64,000 bases of DNA from positions 219,048 to 283,047 of the forward strand of contig PAVS01000005.1 of assembly GCA_002713145.1 (NCBI GenBank), in the 5' to 3' direction. Source of the DNA: Halobacteriovoraceae bacterium. Its GTDB lineage: Bacteria > Bdellovibrionota > Bacteriovoracia > Bacteriovoracales > Bacteriovoracaceae. This document shows, piece by piece, positions 9,467 to 54,716 of this stretch (positions within the stretch are counted from its first letter, which is position 1; the number at the start of each line of letters is the position of its first letter). Below the pieces are notes generated by a model. The model was not told the origin of the DNA, searched no databases, and was given only the letters and a program-made list of their open reading frames with translations. The translations under genes and the position numbers were made by a program.

Positions 9467-9755
9467 TGACATGTTGAATTAAGACATAAGGCTGTATAAT
9501 AATAAATTTAAATTGTTTTTTGAATTGATCTTCTTCAAAAGCTTTACTATCAATATCATCAGTTTTAGTAATCAGCCCTTCATCTAGCCAAAGTTTAATG
9601 AACTGAACCTTGTCTTGAGCGATAGCGACTCCAACGTCCAAAAGATCCAATTGAGAAGAGATAAGCAGAACTGCTCCTCGTTCCACATGAGGTTTAATCA
9701 TTGACCAATCAGCTTCTTCAATTTCTGTTTTTAATTTTTCTTTTAAATCATCCAT
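9453..9755 (-). CDS. DUF2288 family protein
   Basis: 100 aa; MDDLKEKLKTEIEEADWSMIKPHVERGAVLLISSQLDLLDVGVAIAQDKVQFIKLWLDEG resembles DUF2288. Confidence 0.65.
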   Translation of the reverse strand: MDDLKEKLKTEIEEADWSMIKPHVERGAVLLISSQLDLLDVGVAIAQDKVQFIKLWLDEGLITKTDDIDSKAFEEDQFKKQFKFIIIQPYVLIQHVTTLN

Positions 9756-9776
9756 TACATCGATTATAATAAAAGC

Positions 9777-10256
9777 ATGGGTATATTAAAAACAATTTCT
9801 AAAGTTCTTTTATTCTTAATTTTAGCGGCCATACTATTTTTCTTAGTTAGACTGCTTCTGCTGGCCCGAGAAAGCCAGAATATGCAGGTCGCTTCGACTT
9901 ATAATATGCAAAACAATTCGTTAGCCCCTTGTTCAGACAAGCCCAATTGTGTCAGTTCTTTTGCCCCTCAAGCCTCAACTCATTATATCCCAGCTATTTC
10001 TCTGAATGCGACCCAATGGAGCCAGGCGAAAGCTTTTTTCGACCATTGTAATTTACTTTCGGATAAACCTCATTATGTTCATTATGCCTGTGCCACCAGT
10101 GCCTTTGGTTTTGTAGATGATGTAGAACTTCTTTATTTACCAGAGACCAATGAACTCCACATGAGGTCTCAATCCAGAGTGGGCTACTCTGATTTAGGTG
10201 CCAATAGAGATCGTATCAATGAACTTATCTCCCACTTAAAATTTCAAAATGACTAA
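9777..10256 (+). CDS. DUF1499 family protein with N-terminal TM segment
   Basis: [15 protein letters not shown]...[49 protein letters not shown] is the DUF1499 pattern. Confidence 0.8.
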
Positions 10257-11290
10257 TCAAAAAGCTTAGAGTACTTTTCAAGATTATTCTCTTTGAGTTT
10301 TTCTTTAGGAATAAATTTGAGCGCTGCTGAGTTTATACAATAGCGCATACCAGTAGGTTTGGGTCCATCGTTAAAGACGTGGCCTAGATGTGAGTCAGCA
10401 TATCTTGATCTGACTTCAATCCTCTCCATGCCTAAAGTAGAATCGTGTTTCTCGATCACTAAATTTGGCTCTAGAGGCTTGGTAAACGAAGGCCAACCAG
10501 TACCCGATTTAAATTTATCTTGAGAGCTAAAAAGTGGTTCATTTGAAACAATATCCACATAAATGCCTTCTTTTTTATGGTCCCAATATTTATTCTCAAA
10601 TGGCTTTTCAGTAGCATCCTCTTGGGTGACTTGATACTGAATATCACTCAGTTTTTTCTTAAGCTCTTTTTGTGACAGTTTTTTATACTTTTCTTGATTT
10701 AAAAAAGTTTCTCCCTCTTTCCAGTACTTTTCAAGAAAATCATCTCTTCCACTGGCACTCCGGTAGTATTTGTACTTAGCTTTTGTGATCAAACTTTTTT
10801 TATAATAATCTTGGTGATACTCCTCAGCTTTATAAAAATTTTTAAATTCTATAAGAGGAGTAGAAACTTTTTTATCAAATTTTTTTAAATCCTGGAGGGT
10901 CTTTTTTGATCTCTCTGCAACTTTTTTTTGCTCATTGTTATGATAGAAAATTGCTGGTGAATATTGAAACCCTCTATCCACAAACTGCCCCTTATTGTCC
11001 GTTGGATTTATATTTTGCCAAAAGATCTCAACTAATCTCTCATAGCTCACCAATTGAGGATCATAGATTATCTGCACTGCCTCACGGTGCTGAGTAGACC
11101 CACTTGAGACTTGCTTATAAGTGGGATTTTTTTTCTCGCCCCCACTATAGCCTGAGATGACTTCTTTCACTCCTACCAGTTTTTCAAAAGGAGGCTCCAT
11201 ACACCAAAAACACCCTCCAGCAAAAGTTGCTTTTTCCCACTTTGCATGAGCACTGACACTAAGAATAAGCATGAAAAACAATAGACGCAT
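10253..11290 (-). CDS. msrAB: Exported bifunctional peptide-methionine sulfoxide reductase MsrA/MsrB
   Basis: Signal peptide; [16 protein letters not shown] (MsrA); [10 protein letters not shown]...[35 protein letters not shown] (MsrB). Start set at ATG 11290. Confidence 0.94.
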
Positions 11291-49480: not shown

Positions 49481-49577
49481 CTTTCATCTTAAAATATCTC
49501 ACATCTGGGCATTATGAGTTTACGATGTCCGACTATCTTTCTAAGCTAAAGTGCATAATTTTCACGAGGAGAATATT

Positions 49578-50930
49578 TTGAAAGTATTTTTATTAACAAT
49601 GCTAAGCATTAATTTAGCAGTAGCGGGAATAAGTTTTGCCCCAAAAAACTTTGAGGTCAAAGGCAGTCAGGCCGTCTTCGTCGACTTTATCACAATGGAA
49701 TCTGTGGTGACGTATGATCTTAAAGAAAAAGAAACAACAGCAGAATCTACCATTCACTTTAAAGTGATCAAGAAAGGGAAACCACTTTTTGATCTCAAAG
49801 AAAAAGTCATTCGTGCCACTCTCACGGGATCACCTGTTAAGATCGTGGAGGTTGATTCTCCAGATAGAGAAACAAGCTATATGATGGTAGACCAGACACT
49901 TGAGCCTGGAGATTACACTTTAACGCTGACTAACCTTATTGAAGCAAACCAAAGATATGATTGGTATGGAAAATCTGTTCGAGCTGCTTTTTGGATGAGT
50001 GACCTCACTGATAGAAAGTACCTTGAGCAATACTTACCCACAAACCTTGAGTTTGATCAATTTGCACTTACTATGCATGTGAAAATGGTGGGCAATGCTA
50101 AAATGGATCTGCATGAGGTTTATACCAATGGTCAGTTAACCGTGAATGGAAAAAATGATTTTACCATTGAATTTCCAGAGTACTTTACAGCTTCATCTTT
50201 TTACTATCATTTAAGTGTTCAAAACTCATTTGAGAAAACAAGTTTTAATTTTAAATCTATAAATGGTAAGCAAGTTCCAGTTGTTGTTTATTCTTCAAGC
50301 ACTAGCAATGTGAGATCGGCGACAACAAAGACGAAAAAAGTATTAGCTGAGCTAGAAGGGAAACTGGGAGCATGGCCACATCCAAGTTTAGTGGTGTATG
50401 TGGCAGGTTCTGGTGGAATGGAGCACTCAGGTGCCACACGTACGTCTCTCTATGCGCTTGGACATGAACTTATTCATAGTTATTATGCAAGAGGTGTCAT
50501 GCCCATGGATGGGAACTCTGGTTGGATGGACGAAGCCATTGCCTCATGGCGTGATGATGGCTATCAAGTCGCTCAAAGACCTTCTTTTGGTTCTAGTACC
50601 ATGAGTGGACACTCTCCTTATAGAAGAACGACAGATCGTAAGGCCTATAGTCAAGGTGCTAATTTTATGGCCTATCTTAATTACCAGCTCTCTGAGCAAG
50701 GTGGACTCATTGCCTTCTTGAAGCATTTCCATGACTTAAACTCACATAAAAGTGTCACAACTAAAATGTTTAAACAGGAATTGGAAAGCTATTCTGGAAT
50801 GAGCTTTACCAGAGAATTTGATCGTTATATCTATGGTCAGAAAAAAGAGCAATCAACTGACAAAGCTGGTGTAAAGGAGAACCCTTACCATGTTGAACTC
50901 AGCGAGAAAGAGCTAGAGAATTTATTATAA
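49578..50930 (+). CDS. Exported metallopeptidase-like protein (HExxH)
   Basis: YALGHELIHSYYARGVMPMDGNSGWMDEAIASWRDDG. TTG start at 49578 preceded by GAGGAGA and followed by signal peptide KVFLLTMLSINLAVAG. Confidence 0.7.
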   Translation: MKVFLLTMLSINLAVAGISFAPKNFEVKGSQAVFVDFITMESVVTYDLKEKETTAESTIHFKVIKKGKPLFDLKEKVIRATLTGSPVKIVEVDSPDRETSYMMVDQTLEPGDYTLTLTNLIEANQRYDWYGKSVRAAFWMSDLTDRKYLEQYLPTNLEFDQFALTMHVKMVGNAKMDLHEVYTNGQLTVNGKNDFTIEFPEYFTASSFYYHLSVQNSFEKTSFNFKSINGKQVPVVVYSSSTSNVRSATTKTKKVLAELEGKLGAWPHPSLVVYVAGSGGMEHSGATRTSLYALGHELIHSYYARGVMPMDGNSGWMDEAIASWRDDGYQVAQRPSFGSSTMSGHSPYRRTTDRKAYSQGANFMAYLNYQLSEQGGLIAFLKHFHDLNSHKSVTTKMFKQELESYSGMSFTREFDRYIYGQKKEQSTDKAGVKENPYHVELSEKELENLL

Positions 50931-50940
50931 TATCTTATGA

Positions 50941-50967
50941 GGGTCAGACTCGATCTGGCCCTTTTTT
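50941..50967 (+). terminator. Rho-independent terminator
   Basis: GGGTCAGA ctcga TCTGGCCC followed by TTTTTT. Confidence 0.85.
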
Positions 50968-52186
50968 AACTTGATATAACCAAGCGTTTATTTTCAAATT
51001 TCAGTTTTCCAATTTCATACATATATTGATAAAACTTCACATACAACTCACTTCTTAATTCGTTTAACTTCAATTCTGCATCTATTAAGTAAGAATTGAT
51101 ATCAAGAATTTTTAAAGGAGAGATACCACTTCTCCTAGAATAAATACGAAGAAATCTTTTTGCCTCACGAAGAGCTTTAGAGTTTTCTAACTGCTCAACT
51201 CTGTCTGCAAGATTATCAACCTCACCTTTAAGCAGTACCATATTTGATTCAGATTCTGAGTAATCGACTCTTGCTTTTCGTTGTTTGATAAAGCTCTCAA
51301 TGGTATTCTCAGCACGCTTCATATTGGAGTCAAGAAAAGGGACGAGGAAACCAAGCTTAATAGAGAGTCGCTGGTCTTCGACGCTCGCATCTTCAAACTC
51401 TCTTGTTCCCGGCAATTGTCGTTGATCAAAACCGATTCCTACAAATTCTAAAATTTTATTATCCTCTTCTATCTCAAGCTTGCGCTCTATCTGCATTTTT
51501 TCTAAATTAAATTTAGTAAGCTTAACGCTTAAAGCATCGTCTGAGACAGTGGTTTGTTTAAGTTTCTCTTTAATGTAATTCACCGACACCAGTCTTTCAT
51601 TTTCTGCAAACTGATCGAGGGTATAGTTCTCACCCACCAGATGATTGATAGCGGTGACAAGAGCTTTGATTTGGATGAGATGATTTTTACTTTCTTGTTG
51701 ATTGGTTTCTAATTTTTCAATAGCATCAAGGTAATCCTTAGCATCAGCCCGGCCTTTATTCACAAGTTTTTTATTTACACTCACATTGTCTTTGAGAACA
51801 GTATTCATTTTTTTCAAAAGCTGATATTTCTTACGGTACATATTGAGCGAGATATAGAGTTGAATCACTTGATTGAGATCATCTCCCATACTTATTTTTT
51901 GAATGATTTTCTTTCTCTTTTTTTGATTTTCATAGAGCTTTTTTTTGAGTCGATATTCTTTATAATTATCCAAAGAGAACCTGGCTTCGACTTCAATATC
52001 ACCTTCTTTAAATTCATGATCGTCATCTAAGCGAAGAGAGATTTCTTTGATAAAGGGTTTAGGCATCGTGAGTGAAATATCCTGCTCGATGGCATTGATT
52101 TTGGAAATCAGGTCATTTAACGTTATTTTTTTTCCCAAGGCCGTGGTGGCCATCAGACTTATAAATACCAATAAAGCACTTTTCAT
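50966..52186 (-). CDS. TolC-like outer-membrane efflux family protein
   Basis: Signal peptide; long helical segments with VNKKLVNKGRADAKDYLDAIEKLETNQQES (TolC/OEP-like hairpin pattern) and a repeated second half. Confidence 0.65.
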   Translation of the reverse strand: MKSALLVFISLMATTALGKKITLNDLISKINAIEQDISLTMPKPFIKEISLRLDDDHEFKEGDIEVEARFSLDNYKEYRLKKKLYENQKKRKKIIQKISMGDDLNQVIQLYISLNMYRKKYQLLKKMNTVLKDNVSVNKKLVNKGRADAKDYLDAIEKLETNQQESKNHLIQIKALVTAINHLVGENYTLDQFAENERLVSVNYIKEKLKQTTVSDDALSVKLTKFNLEKMQIERKLEIEEDNKILEFVGIGFDQRQLPGTREFEDASVEDQRLSIKLGFLVPFLDSNMKRAENTIESFIKQRKARVDYSESESNMVLLKGEVDNLADRVEQLENSKALREAKRFLRIYSRRSGISPLKILDINSYLIDAELKLNELRSELYVKFYQYMYEIGKLKFENKRLVISS

Positions 52187-52198
52187 TTCACTTCCAAC

Positions 52199-53992
52199 TT
52201 ATTCGAGTTTGATAGTAGACATAACAAGAGGGGCATCTTGATCATTATTATCAAAAACAACAAGAAATTCGTTTTGAGTGGCATCAAAGGTAATCCCCTC
52301 TGGCCTATGATCAGAATAGTTCTTAAGCTCGACAACTGGACTTTGATAGTCAAAGCTCGTTTTAAGCACGCGCCCTCGGTTCTTATACTTATTATTTCCT
52401 GTAACGATATAGAGGTCTTTTTTATGTAGTAAGAGATCGCTTATCCCCTCATGTCTATCTGTTTTTCTATTCACAGGCAGCTTATAGGTTCTAAAGATAC
52501 TTACCTGTCGTCGTGAGAGCTTACCTTTCTCAAACATTCTGTCTAAATGATTTATTTGCAAGATACTGACTTCATTATTATCACCCACATCATTACGAAG
52601 ACCTAAGTAGGCAGTGTTCTCATAAACAACTAAACCTTCCACATCGATTTCTATATTATGCTTCCCTTTTTTCTTCTTTACTAACTTCACCCATTCATCT
52701 TTTGAGTATTTATCAGCTAAATCATCCAATAAATTAAATAAGTTCACTTCTTTTTTAGAAATAAGCTGAACGCCTTTTCGCTCTAATTGAATAAGTTTTT
52801 GGCGAAGTTTCGAGAGCTTGCCATTTTTAGATTCAGACTGAGAAGATGATATATATATGTTCCCCTTTTCATCTTGGGTGATCGCTTCCATATCCTTTAT
52901 CTCTTTTAGTCCTTCCACCGTAATGATATGGGGGTCAATGGTTCCATCTCTATTCAGTAAATAAACGAGGGGTTTGTGATCATAATTATCATCACTAATG
53001 AACATAAATTTATTTAGCTCTTTAACAAATAATACCCCTGATGGTTCGATATTATTTTCTGATAATTCTCCAGGTTTAATTTCAATAATCTCATAGGAAA
53101 AAGACTTAGGATTTGTTTCCTTTGCTACTGACTGATTTAGAAAAGAGATATTATTTCCTTCTTCCACATCGATGAAAACTTTTTCACCTAAGAGAAAAGA
53201 GTTTTTATGAGGAATTTCGATCATAACCTCTCGCCCCCAGACCTTAATCTCTGGCGTTCTGCGAAACCTTTCCGGAAACTCGACGATCCTTGTTCCTACT
53301 GACTTTACTCTGGCCACCACACTTTGTTTTGATGAAAGGGATTTCACATATACTTTTTTGCCTTCCGCAACTTGATTGGATAGGTTTTCGTGAATATAAC
53401 CTCTGACAAAACTCGGTGTTTTTTTATGCAAAGTCAGAATGGGAGTAAAAGGAGAAACAAGCTCACCTACTTTGAAGTTTACAAATCCAATATGCCCATC
53501 AAAATTTGAGAAAATATATTGTTCCGCTTGGTCTGTTTTGAGAAGTTTAAGTTCTTTCTCTAGGTTTTTAATTTGTATACTCAGAAGGTCTTCGTCTTCA
53601 TTTGTCCCTTGAGATCTTTTATAATTTCTCATGCTCTTAATATTAGCATTAAGCTCAGAGTTAAGCTTATACTGGGCCCGTAACTCATCAAGTCTATAAG
53701 TGACTTCATTTATACTTTTTTCCAAGTCTTTTCGTTCAAGTTGAACTAGGAGTTCTCCTTGTTTAACATACTGGCCAGGGATGACATTGATCCCCTTGAT
53801 CACAACCGGATGGCGTGATGTGATATTGACTTCCTTAGAATCTGTTTCTCCTACAAACTTGTGAGATGAAGATGTCATCGAGTTAACCATGATAATAGTT
53901 AAAAGAGTCAGTATCCACACTGACAGATAAAGTTTATTTTCAACAAACTTCTCTTTTAATAATTCAAAATCAACTTGTTGGAGCAGTTTCAT
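52199..53992 (-). CDS. HlyD-like membrane fusion protein fused to C-terminal beta-propeller (DUF3616/SdiA-regulated-like)
   Basis: N-terminal TM; lipoyl/barrel-sandwich VIPGQYVKQGELLVQLERKDLEKSI and SNFDGHIGFVNFKVGELVSPFTPILTL; C-terminal repeats DMEAITQDEKGNIYISS, DVEGLVVYENTAYLGLR, HEGISDLLLHKKDLYIVTG, RPEGITFDATQNEFLVVFDN. Confidence 0.75.
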   Translation of the reverse strand: MKLLQQVDFELLKEKFVENKLYLSVWILTLLTIIMVNSMTSSSHKFVGETDSKEVNITSRHPVVIKGINVIPGQYVKQGELLVQLERKDLEKSINEVTYRLDELRAQYKLNSELNANIKSMRNYKRSQGTNEDEDLLSIQIKNLEKELKLLKTDQAEQYIFSNFDGHIGFVNFKVGELVSPFTPILTLHKKTPSFVRGYIHENLSNQVAEGKKVYVKSLSSKQSVVARVKSVGTRIVEFPERFRRTPEIKVWGREVMIEIPHKNSFLLGEKVFIDVEEGNNISFLNQSVAKETNPKSFSYEIIEIKPGELSENNIEPSGVLFVKELNKFMFISDDNYDHKPLVYLLNRDGTIDPHIITVEGLKEIKDMEAITQDEKGNIYISSSQSESKNGKLSKLRQKLIQLERKGVQLISKKEVNLFNLLDDLADKYSKDEWVKLVKKKKGKHNIEIDVEGLVVYENTAYLGLRNDVGDNNEVSILQINHLDRMFEKGKLSRRQVSIFRTYKLPVNRKTDRHEGISDLLLHKKDLYIVTGNNKYKNRGRVLKTSFDYQSPVVELKNYSDHRPEGITFDATQNEFLVVFDNNDQDAPLVMSTIKLE

Positions 53993-54716
53993 TTGGTCCT
54001 TTGTCCTTGTTTTTATTTTTTGACTTCTTCTTATTGAGCTCGACCATCAACTCTTGAGTTGAAAAGCGTAAGCCTTTCATGGAGGAGATTTCTTGCAAGC
54101 CCCCCATTAATTGGTCGTGTGTTATATCATTTTTAAGCTTAATTTGGTAGTTATATGCGAGTCGTTTTCCTTTAGATGCTTCAGCTAAGGACACGAGTGA
54201 GTAATGCTGACAATGCTTAGACATGACCTCTTCGAGTTGTCTTTTTTCTTCTGCTGTATTGTCTAAACTAAAGCGGAGGATTCCATCAAAATAATCTTCT
54301 TTACTAAAAGGCATGGTGCTTACAATCATGGCAAAAATTGAATAACCTATAGTTCCAAGTGCTGCGATGGTAAAAGCATAGACCCCACAAGCAATTCCCA
54401 CTGCAAGTGACATAAAGACAAAGATCATATCTCTTGGGTCTCGCATATTATTACGAAACCGAATCATGGCTAGCGCTCCCATCATTCCTAAACCACGAGC
54501 TAGATTATCGCCTATGGCCTGCATGGCCACGGTGGCCACAATGGATGCTAGAATGAGAGCTTGTACGTAATTTCTTGAGTAACTTAAACCCTGGTAAGTT
54601 CGCTGATATGTCATGGCAATAAGAGAAGAGAGCACAAAAGATAAACATATCGAATAAGTGATCGATATTGTTGTTGGATTTTGTACTGTCGTAAATAAGC
54701 TCGACATATCAAGCAT
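53970..54716 (-). CDS. DUF4956 family membrane protein
   Basis: QALILASIVATVAMQAIGDNLARGLGMMGALAMIRFRNNMRDPRDMIFVFMSLAVGIACGVYAFTIAALGTI is the DUF4956 core. Confidence 0.82.
   Translation of the reverse strand: MLDMSSLFTTVQNPTTISITYSICLSFVLSSLIAMTYQRTYQGLSYSRNYVQALILASIVATVAMQAIGDNLARGLGMMGALAMIRFRNNMRDPRDMIFVFMSLAVGIACGVYAFTIAALGTIGYSIFAMIVSTMPFSKEDYFDGILRFSLDNTAEEKRQLEEVMSKHCQHYSLVSLAEASKGKRLAYNYQIKLKNDITHDQLMGGLQEISSMKGLRFSTQELMVELNKKKSKNKNKDKGPNETAPTS

Follow-up and report, generated by a model that had tools for sequence, protein, structure and literature searches.

Tripartite exporters such as MacAB-TolC, EmrAB-TolC and HlyBD-TolC unite a pump, an HlyD-type adaptor and a TolC-fold outer-membrane factor, the last two in one operon. 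In the synthase-dependent secretion of exopolysaccharides (cellulose, alginate, Pel), polymer synthesis is proposed to drive passage across both membranes, and the outer-membrane part is a dedicated barrel porin. In yeast, the VTC complex (Vtc1/Vtc3/Vtc4) couples the synthesis of polyphosphate by a TTM-fold polymerase to passage of the chain through a membrane channel (PMC9911596). In S. intermedius a protein with an MgtC-type membrane part and an intracellular ACT domain, SIR_1592, is encoded beside genes for a polyphosphate polymerase and CotH (PMC12345266); its identification as a DUF4956 protein is our own reading, made by combining that paper with PMC7112168. Here we analysed a locus in a 64,000-nucleotide stretch (the window) from Halobacteriovoraceae bacterium (GCA_002713145.1, contig PAVS01000005.1, positions 219,048 to 283,047), which encodes a DUF4956 protein, an HlyD-type adaptor and a TolC-type outer-membrane factor. 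We lean towards reading this triad as a VTC-less derivative of a four-gene, VTC-driven polyphosphate synthase and exporter that would span both membranes.

The triad and the four-gene operon

The three genes lie on the minus strand, the first two overlapping by 23 bp and the last two separated by 12 bp; the open reading frame coordinates agree with the close packing described in an earlier, sequence-only reading of the locus. The first gene (53970-54716) encodes a 248-amino-acid, MgtC-related inner-membrane protein, the second (52199-53992) a 597-amino-acid adaptor of the HlyD/membrane-fusion type with a fused C-terminal propeller-like domain, and the third (50966-52186) a 406-amino-acid TolC-type factor (OEP). 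Pfam matches above the cut-off for the first two, and a structure model for the third, bear out the identities proposed by that reading. No ABC, RND or MFS pump gene was found in the triad from its open reading frames and Pfam matches, and PADLOC reported no match to a defence system.

We surveyed 291 Bdellovibrionota genomes for this DUF4956 subtype (threshold >200 bits) and found it in 33, the window's included, from five families (f1, f6, f11, f17 and f27), so that its conservation extends well beyond close relatives. Neighbourhoods were scanned with profiles made in this analysis. Complete context was available for 30 other loci, 29 from the survey and one (G016) from a set of relatives, and in all 30 the order was DUF4956-HlyD-OEP-VTC, with the VTC gene directly after the TolC gene and most junctions being overlaps or gaps of <20 bp. 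Three further loci, including the sole one from f27, were cut by contig ends; the full operon was thus seen in four of the five families. At L064 the OEP gene was missed by the profile, and a 397-amino-acid open reading frame with the same features occupies its place. L011, from a scan of genome contigs for close relatives, is a further complete example, and the operon is also present in a predator, Bdellovibrio bacteriovorus. Since relatives with the same gene order occur in 30 other Bdellovibrionota genomes, as the neighbourhood search proposed in the sequence-only reading has now revealed, the triad is not a chance association. Among subtype loci with complete context, that of the window alone lacks VTC.

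There is no space for an ABC, RND or MFS pump gene between the four genes in the 30 loci, and the operons examined yielded no dedicated partner of the ABC or RND type; the sequence-only reading was right to describe an envelope-spanning set free of such pumps. It had further suggested an exporter or polymer-assembly triad with DUF4956 as the substitute for the pump. The link to VTC and to a polymer held up, but the triad proved to be incomplete, and the energy probably comes from VTC. As the fourth gene of the complete operons, VTC accounts for the absent pump, and this ATP-consuming polymerase, rather than DUF4956, is most likely the energy source. That DUF4956 itself is a primary or secondary pump replacing ABC or RND, as its being an integral membrane protein and the lack of an ATPase gene between the operon genes might suggest, is highly improbable: it has about four transmembrane helices, MgtC ancestry and no match to a nucleotide-binding family in Pfam, VTC already explains the energy supply, and DUF4956 is paired with VTC also where HlyD and OEP are absent. 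Across the phylum, with few exceptions, a VTC gene lies within ~6 kb of DUF4956, the pair belonging either to a four-gene operon or to a VTC-DUF4956 set, which in some cases includes CotH. With a CotH profile, no CotH gene was detected adjacent to the triad or to the four-gene operons.

No second full operon was found outside Bdellovibrionota, either in one close-relative scan of genome contigs or in the three plasmid records inspected from a search of plasmid and phage sequences for DUF4956. These three contain CotH-type, TolC-adjacent or solitary DUF4956 genes. On a Hymenobacter plasmid (L038:5896-7979) a TolC family gene comes directly after DUF4956, and neither HlyD nor VTC is adjacent; on pSymA of Sinorhizobium meliloti (L037:5272-7642) a solitary DUF4956 gene follows a gene that, by eye, apparently encodes a caspase-like protein. 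None of the papers searched, which were open-licence only, describes the four-gene system or a bacterial VTC-TolC system; the absence of a description is thus not proven.

The four proteins

The DUF4956 protein passes the Pfam cut-off (PF16316, 51.4 bits, E=1.4e-13). Its transmembrane region by hydropathy (amino acids 15-137; 54306-54674, minus strand) contains the motif RFR...(K/R)DP, of which R86, F87, R88, D93 and P94 are invariant among 14 subtype members. It is followed by an ACT-like domain (amino acids 141-227; 54036-54296, minus strand), modelled as beta-alpha-beta-beta-alpha-beta with pLDDT ~80, an ACT/ferredoxin-like fold that matched structures of ACT domains. As judged by profile comparison, DUF4956 is homologous to MgtC: hhalign aligned the two over the transmembrane part and the C-terminal domain (prob 94.6, score 58.3), against scores of 15.6 for a reversed control and maxima of 19.4 for shuffled controls and 22.6 for unrelated hydrophobic proteins, and the MgtC Pfam model alone matches the DUF4956 protein of one four-gene operon (G010; E=5.4e-4). 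By profile, DUF4956 shares with the MgtC/SapB family a homologous membrane core and an ACT-like C-terminal domain, but lacks the GLTTAATIW motif of MgtC and has instead the RFR..(K/R)DP motif and a VTC partner.

The adaptor passes the HlyD_3 cut-off (37.6 bits), matches RND_mfp below the cut-off (69.8 bits), and by profile matches the MexA/MacA and EmrA structures. Its propeller-like domain (amino acids 300-597; 52202-53095, minus strand) is related to the Phytase-like, DUF3616 and DUF6929 families. The window's domain matches DUF3616 at 26.1 bits (cut-off 20.6) and Phytase-like only weakly, and Phytase-like PF13449 matches 7 of 10 members (best E=1.1e-6). The propeller is optional, because the shortest adaptors (L011, L066, L067 and L068) are devoid of it. 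A related phytase-like protein occurs unfused at L035:5530-7163, where the gene for it (PF13449, 228.6 bits) is overlapped by 1 base by that of a 170-amino-acid DUF4956 protein that stops after the membrane part, with no VTC nearby; in the window the propeller is fused to HlyD.

The Pfam OEP match of the third protein is weak (E=0.013, below the cut-off), and TolC was not found when an OEP profile was searched against PDB sequences. Its AlphaFold2 model (mean pLDDT 80.4), however, has the TolC layout, and all 44 PDB structure matches with E<=0.001 are TolC/OprM-type outer-membrane channels (best E=3e-11). On this model the protein is a TolC-fold outer-membrane factor, as the sequence-only reading had supposed. 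Two of the conditions which that reading set for its own refutation, conservation limited to close relatives and an OEP gene without the TolC fold, therefore fail.

The VTC protein missing from the window is ~265 amino acids long in the operons (PF09359, 147.8 bits for L004). A profile of the bacterial proteins matches the yeast Vtc4 structure 3g3q (E=1.7e-13), and nine mapped tunnel residues of Vtc4 (K200, R264, R266, K281, K294, R361, R373, E426 and K458) align with identical, conserved residues. Three of these make up the set R264A/R266A/E426N that inactivates Vtc4 in the cryo-EM study of VTC (PMC9911596). By this similarity, the operon's VTC would make polyphosphate from ATP. The bacterial system resembles the eukaryotic complex in its TTM-fold polymerase, the tunnel residues and a membrane part proposed to pass the chain; it differs in that bacterial VTC lacks SPX and transmembrane domains of its own, in that its partner is the MgtC-like DUF4956 rather than a Vtc1-type transmembrane domain, and in the addition of an adaptor and an outer-membrane channel.

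Loss of VTC and change in DUF4956

In a genome of the same genus (G001, locus L027) the order runs DUF4956, HlyD, OEP, VTC (9709-10530), then a secreted protein of 1,109 amino acids, a hexapeptide protein and, last, a peptidase. The window has an ortholog of this peptidase-like gene (49551-50930, plus strand; 57.6% identical to L027:14784-15827), a flanking gene that serves as a synteny anchor and lies outside the system; 35 bp lie between its end and the TolC gene. This gap (50931-50965), at the site of VTC in relatives, contains a terminator hairpin (50939-50963). The upstream side of the triad matches L004. Since synteny is preserved on both sides and VTC is absent, the locus is most simply explained by an in-place deletion, which took the VTC gene and all else that separated the TolC gene from the peptidase downstream. 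There is no VTC on the contig of the triad (C8), and a search with a close VTC protein revealed no ortholog or degenerate remnant elsewhere in the genome (assembly 99.4% complete, 8.3% contamination); its only two VTC genes belong to other sets, on C14 and C17. In gene trees the window's genes stand next to copies from the same genus and family.

DUF4956 of the window has a branch of 0.94, compared with 0.19-0.21 in its three nearest relatives, all of which have VTC, while for HlyD the window branch is 0.64 compared with 0.79-0.96. Relative-rate counts of the window versus L031 agreed: for DUF4956 they were 38:7 (outgroup L029) and 34:9 (outgroup L063), for HlyD 57:69 and 44:70 with the same outgroups, and for OEP 45:28 (p=0.047) and 41:36, a marginal acceleration at most. 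At sites that are conserved among five relatives, changes fell on the C-terminal domain (18 of 42 sites) more than on the transmembrane part (10 of 86; Fisher p=1.6e-4), making the ACT-like domain the part most altered in the window genome. Only one other DUF4956 locus examined in the phylum, L035, combines a complete neighbourhood with the lack of VTC, and its 170-amino-acid DUF4956 has no C-terminal domain at all. The faster change of DUF4956 after the loss of VTC, with no such change in HlyD, points to a coupling of DUF4956 and VTC, and the C-terminal changes together with the truncation at L035 are what would be expected if the C-terminal domain serves VTC. As it comes from one lineage and one further case, and as L064 and L067 are long-branched with VTC in place, the pattern is support and not proof. 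In a check for general degeneracy by leave-one-out counts, the window's DUF4956 was not the most deviant member.

These results bear on two other explanations. The triad may be a decaying, functionless remnant, since the enzyme gene has gone from the locus, no ortholog was found elsewhere in the genome and DUF4956 is accelerated. We regard this as doubtful, because the three reading frames are intact and keep their close spacing, HlyD is not accelerated relative to its sisters, and the RFR..DP membrane motif is retained. Alternatively, DUF4956 may regulate ATP synthase or phosphate signalling in the manner of MgtC, with VTC acting inside the cell and HlyD-OEP exporting an unrelated small compound. 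Homology to MgtC is in line with this, as is the action on ATP synthase and PhoR reported for Salmonella MgtC in work cited by PMC12345266. It is nevertheless distinctly unlikely, given that HlyD and OEP would then be without a pump in all 30 genomes, yet the four genes form one overlapping operon across four families, and that the change in DUF4956 tracks the loss of VTC specifically.

A candidate route for polyphosphate

In the mechanism that we propose for the complete operon, cytosolic VTC would build polyphosphate from ATP and pass the chain, as it grows, into a conduit in the membrane. VTC would dock on the cytosolic ACT-like domain of DUF4956, and DUF4956 may form or gate the inner-membrane passage. 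From there the chain would be carried across the periplasm and the outer membrane by the HlyD adaptor and a TolC-type channel, and the phytase-like propeller, where present, may bind or trim polyphosphate, as its family relationship suggests. The driving force would come from polymer synthesis rather than from an ABC or RND ATPase. The system would thus have a polymerase in the place taken by the pump in MacAB-TolC, EmrAB-TolC and HlyBD-TolC, and an adaptor that often bears a propeller; it would differ from synthase-dependent exopolysaccharide secretion in its product, polyphosphate, and in its TolC-type outer-membrane part. From the likeness of VTC to Vtc4, polyphosphate is the probable cargo, and by analogy with HlyD/TolC systems it would be exported out of the cell. 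The conduit genes of the window genome are intact, and one of the two VTC enzymes from its other sets may work with them.

Several points weigh against this proposal. Delivery to the outside is argued from the HlyD/TolC analogy alone, and the window locus itself has no polymerase. No pore is shown for DUF4956, since its membrane part was modelled poorly (pLDDT ~60); in the structure search the ACT-like domain alone gave matches. The literature searched yielded no experiment on the operon and no biochemical data on bacterial VTC of the operon type. When the VTC gene of the VTC-DUF4956-CotH set was deleted in S. intermedius, no effect on aggregation or Pel was reported, while deletions of DUF4956 and CotH did change the phenotype (aggregation or Pel) (PMC12345266), so that DUF4956 can matter there without VTC.

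The S. intermedius set (SIR_1592-1594) has the same pair of VTC and DUF4956 (transmembrane part and ACT domain), but with a CotH kinase and Pel genes and without HlyD or TolC; the window genome has two sets of this type besides the triad (L019:8968-11695 and L020:10324-13770). Pel genes were not recognised beside these two sets, for which no Pel-specific search was made; the S. intermedius study did not find the VTC-DUF4956-CotH arrangement outside Pel (PMC12345266). It is conceivable that the four-gene module makes or steers export of another polymer, for example a polysaccharide, with VTC-DUF4956 supplying only phosphate groups or regulation. VTC-DUF4956-CotH genes adjoin Pel genes in Gram-positives (PMC7112168), deletion of DUF4956 or CotH alters Pel levels in S. 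intermedius (PMC12345266), and the set on C14 of the window genome adjoins a glycosyltransferase gene. We nonetheless consider this unlikely, as the four genes abut or overlap, so that in none of the 30 loci does the operon contain a glycosyltransferase gene, and as VTC is the only conserved synthetic enzyme of the operon.

A family of secreted-looking proteins (~500-1,315 amino acids; invariant K, E, N and D-x-G), for which neither Pfam nor PDB gave a notable match, recurs beside DUF4956/VTC loci (L027:10666-13995, L029:11058-14510, L030:1611-5558 and L064:1820-5419, with ~510-amino-acid versions in L032 and L075-L077). The window genome has a 38% identical copy away from the triad (G000:C10:248869-252237). 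We rejected the idea that the 1,109-amino-acid family is a divergent CotH (hhalign prob 0.3). ATP is scarce outside the cytoplasm. A speculative and very unlikely extension of our proposal is that extracytoplasmic kinases, namely CotH and perhaps the large secreted family (1,109-1,315 amino acids), draw their phosphate from polyphosphate exported by VTC-DUF4956, and that the HlyD/TolC version would supply the cell surface.

For the polyphosphate coat of gonococci it has been suggested that other gene products may take part in carrying polyphosphate across the outer membrane (PMC10237660). For the delivery of bacterial polyphosphate to the surface, the four-gene operon offers a directly testable candidate machine, and the window genome, having lost VTC, is a natural test for the part of DUF4956 that serves this enzyme. 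If our proposal is correct, it would give DUF4956 a role and would extend the VTC principle of yeast vacuoles to the two-membrane envelope of bacteria.

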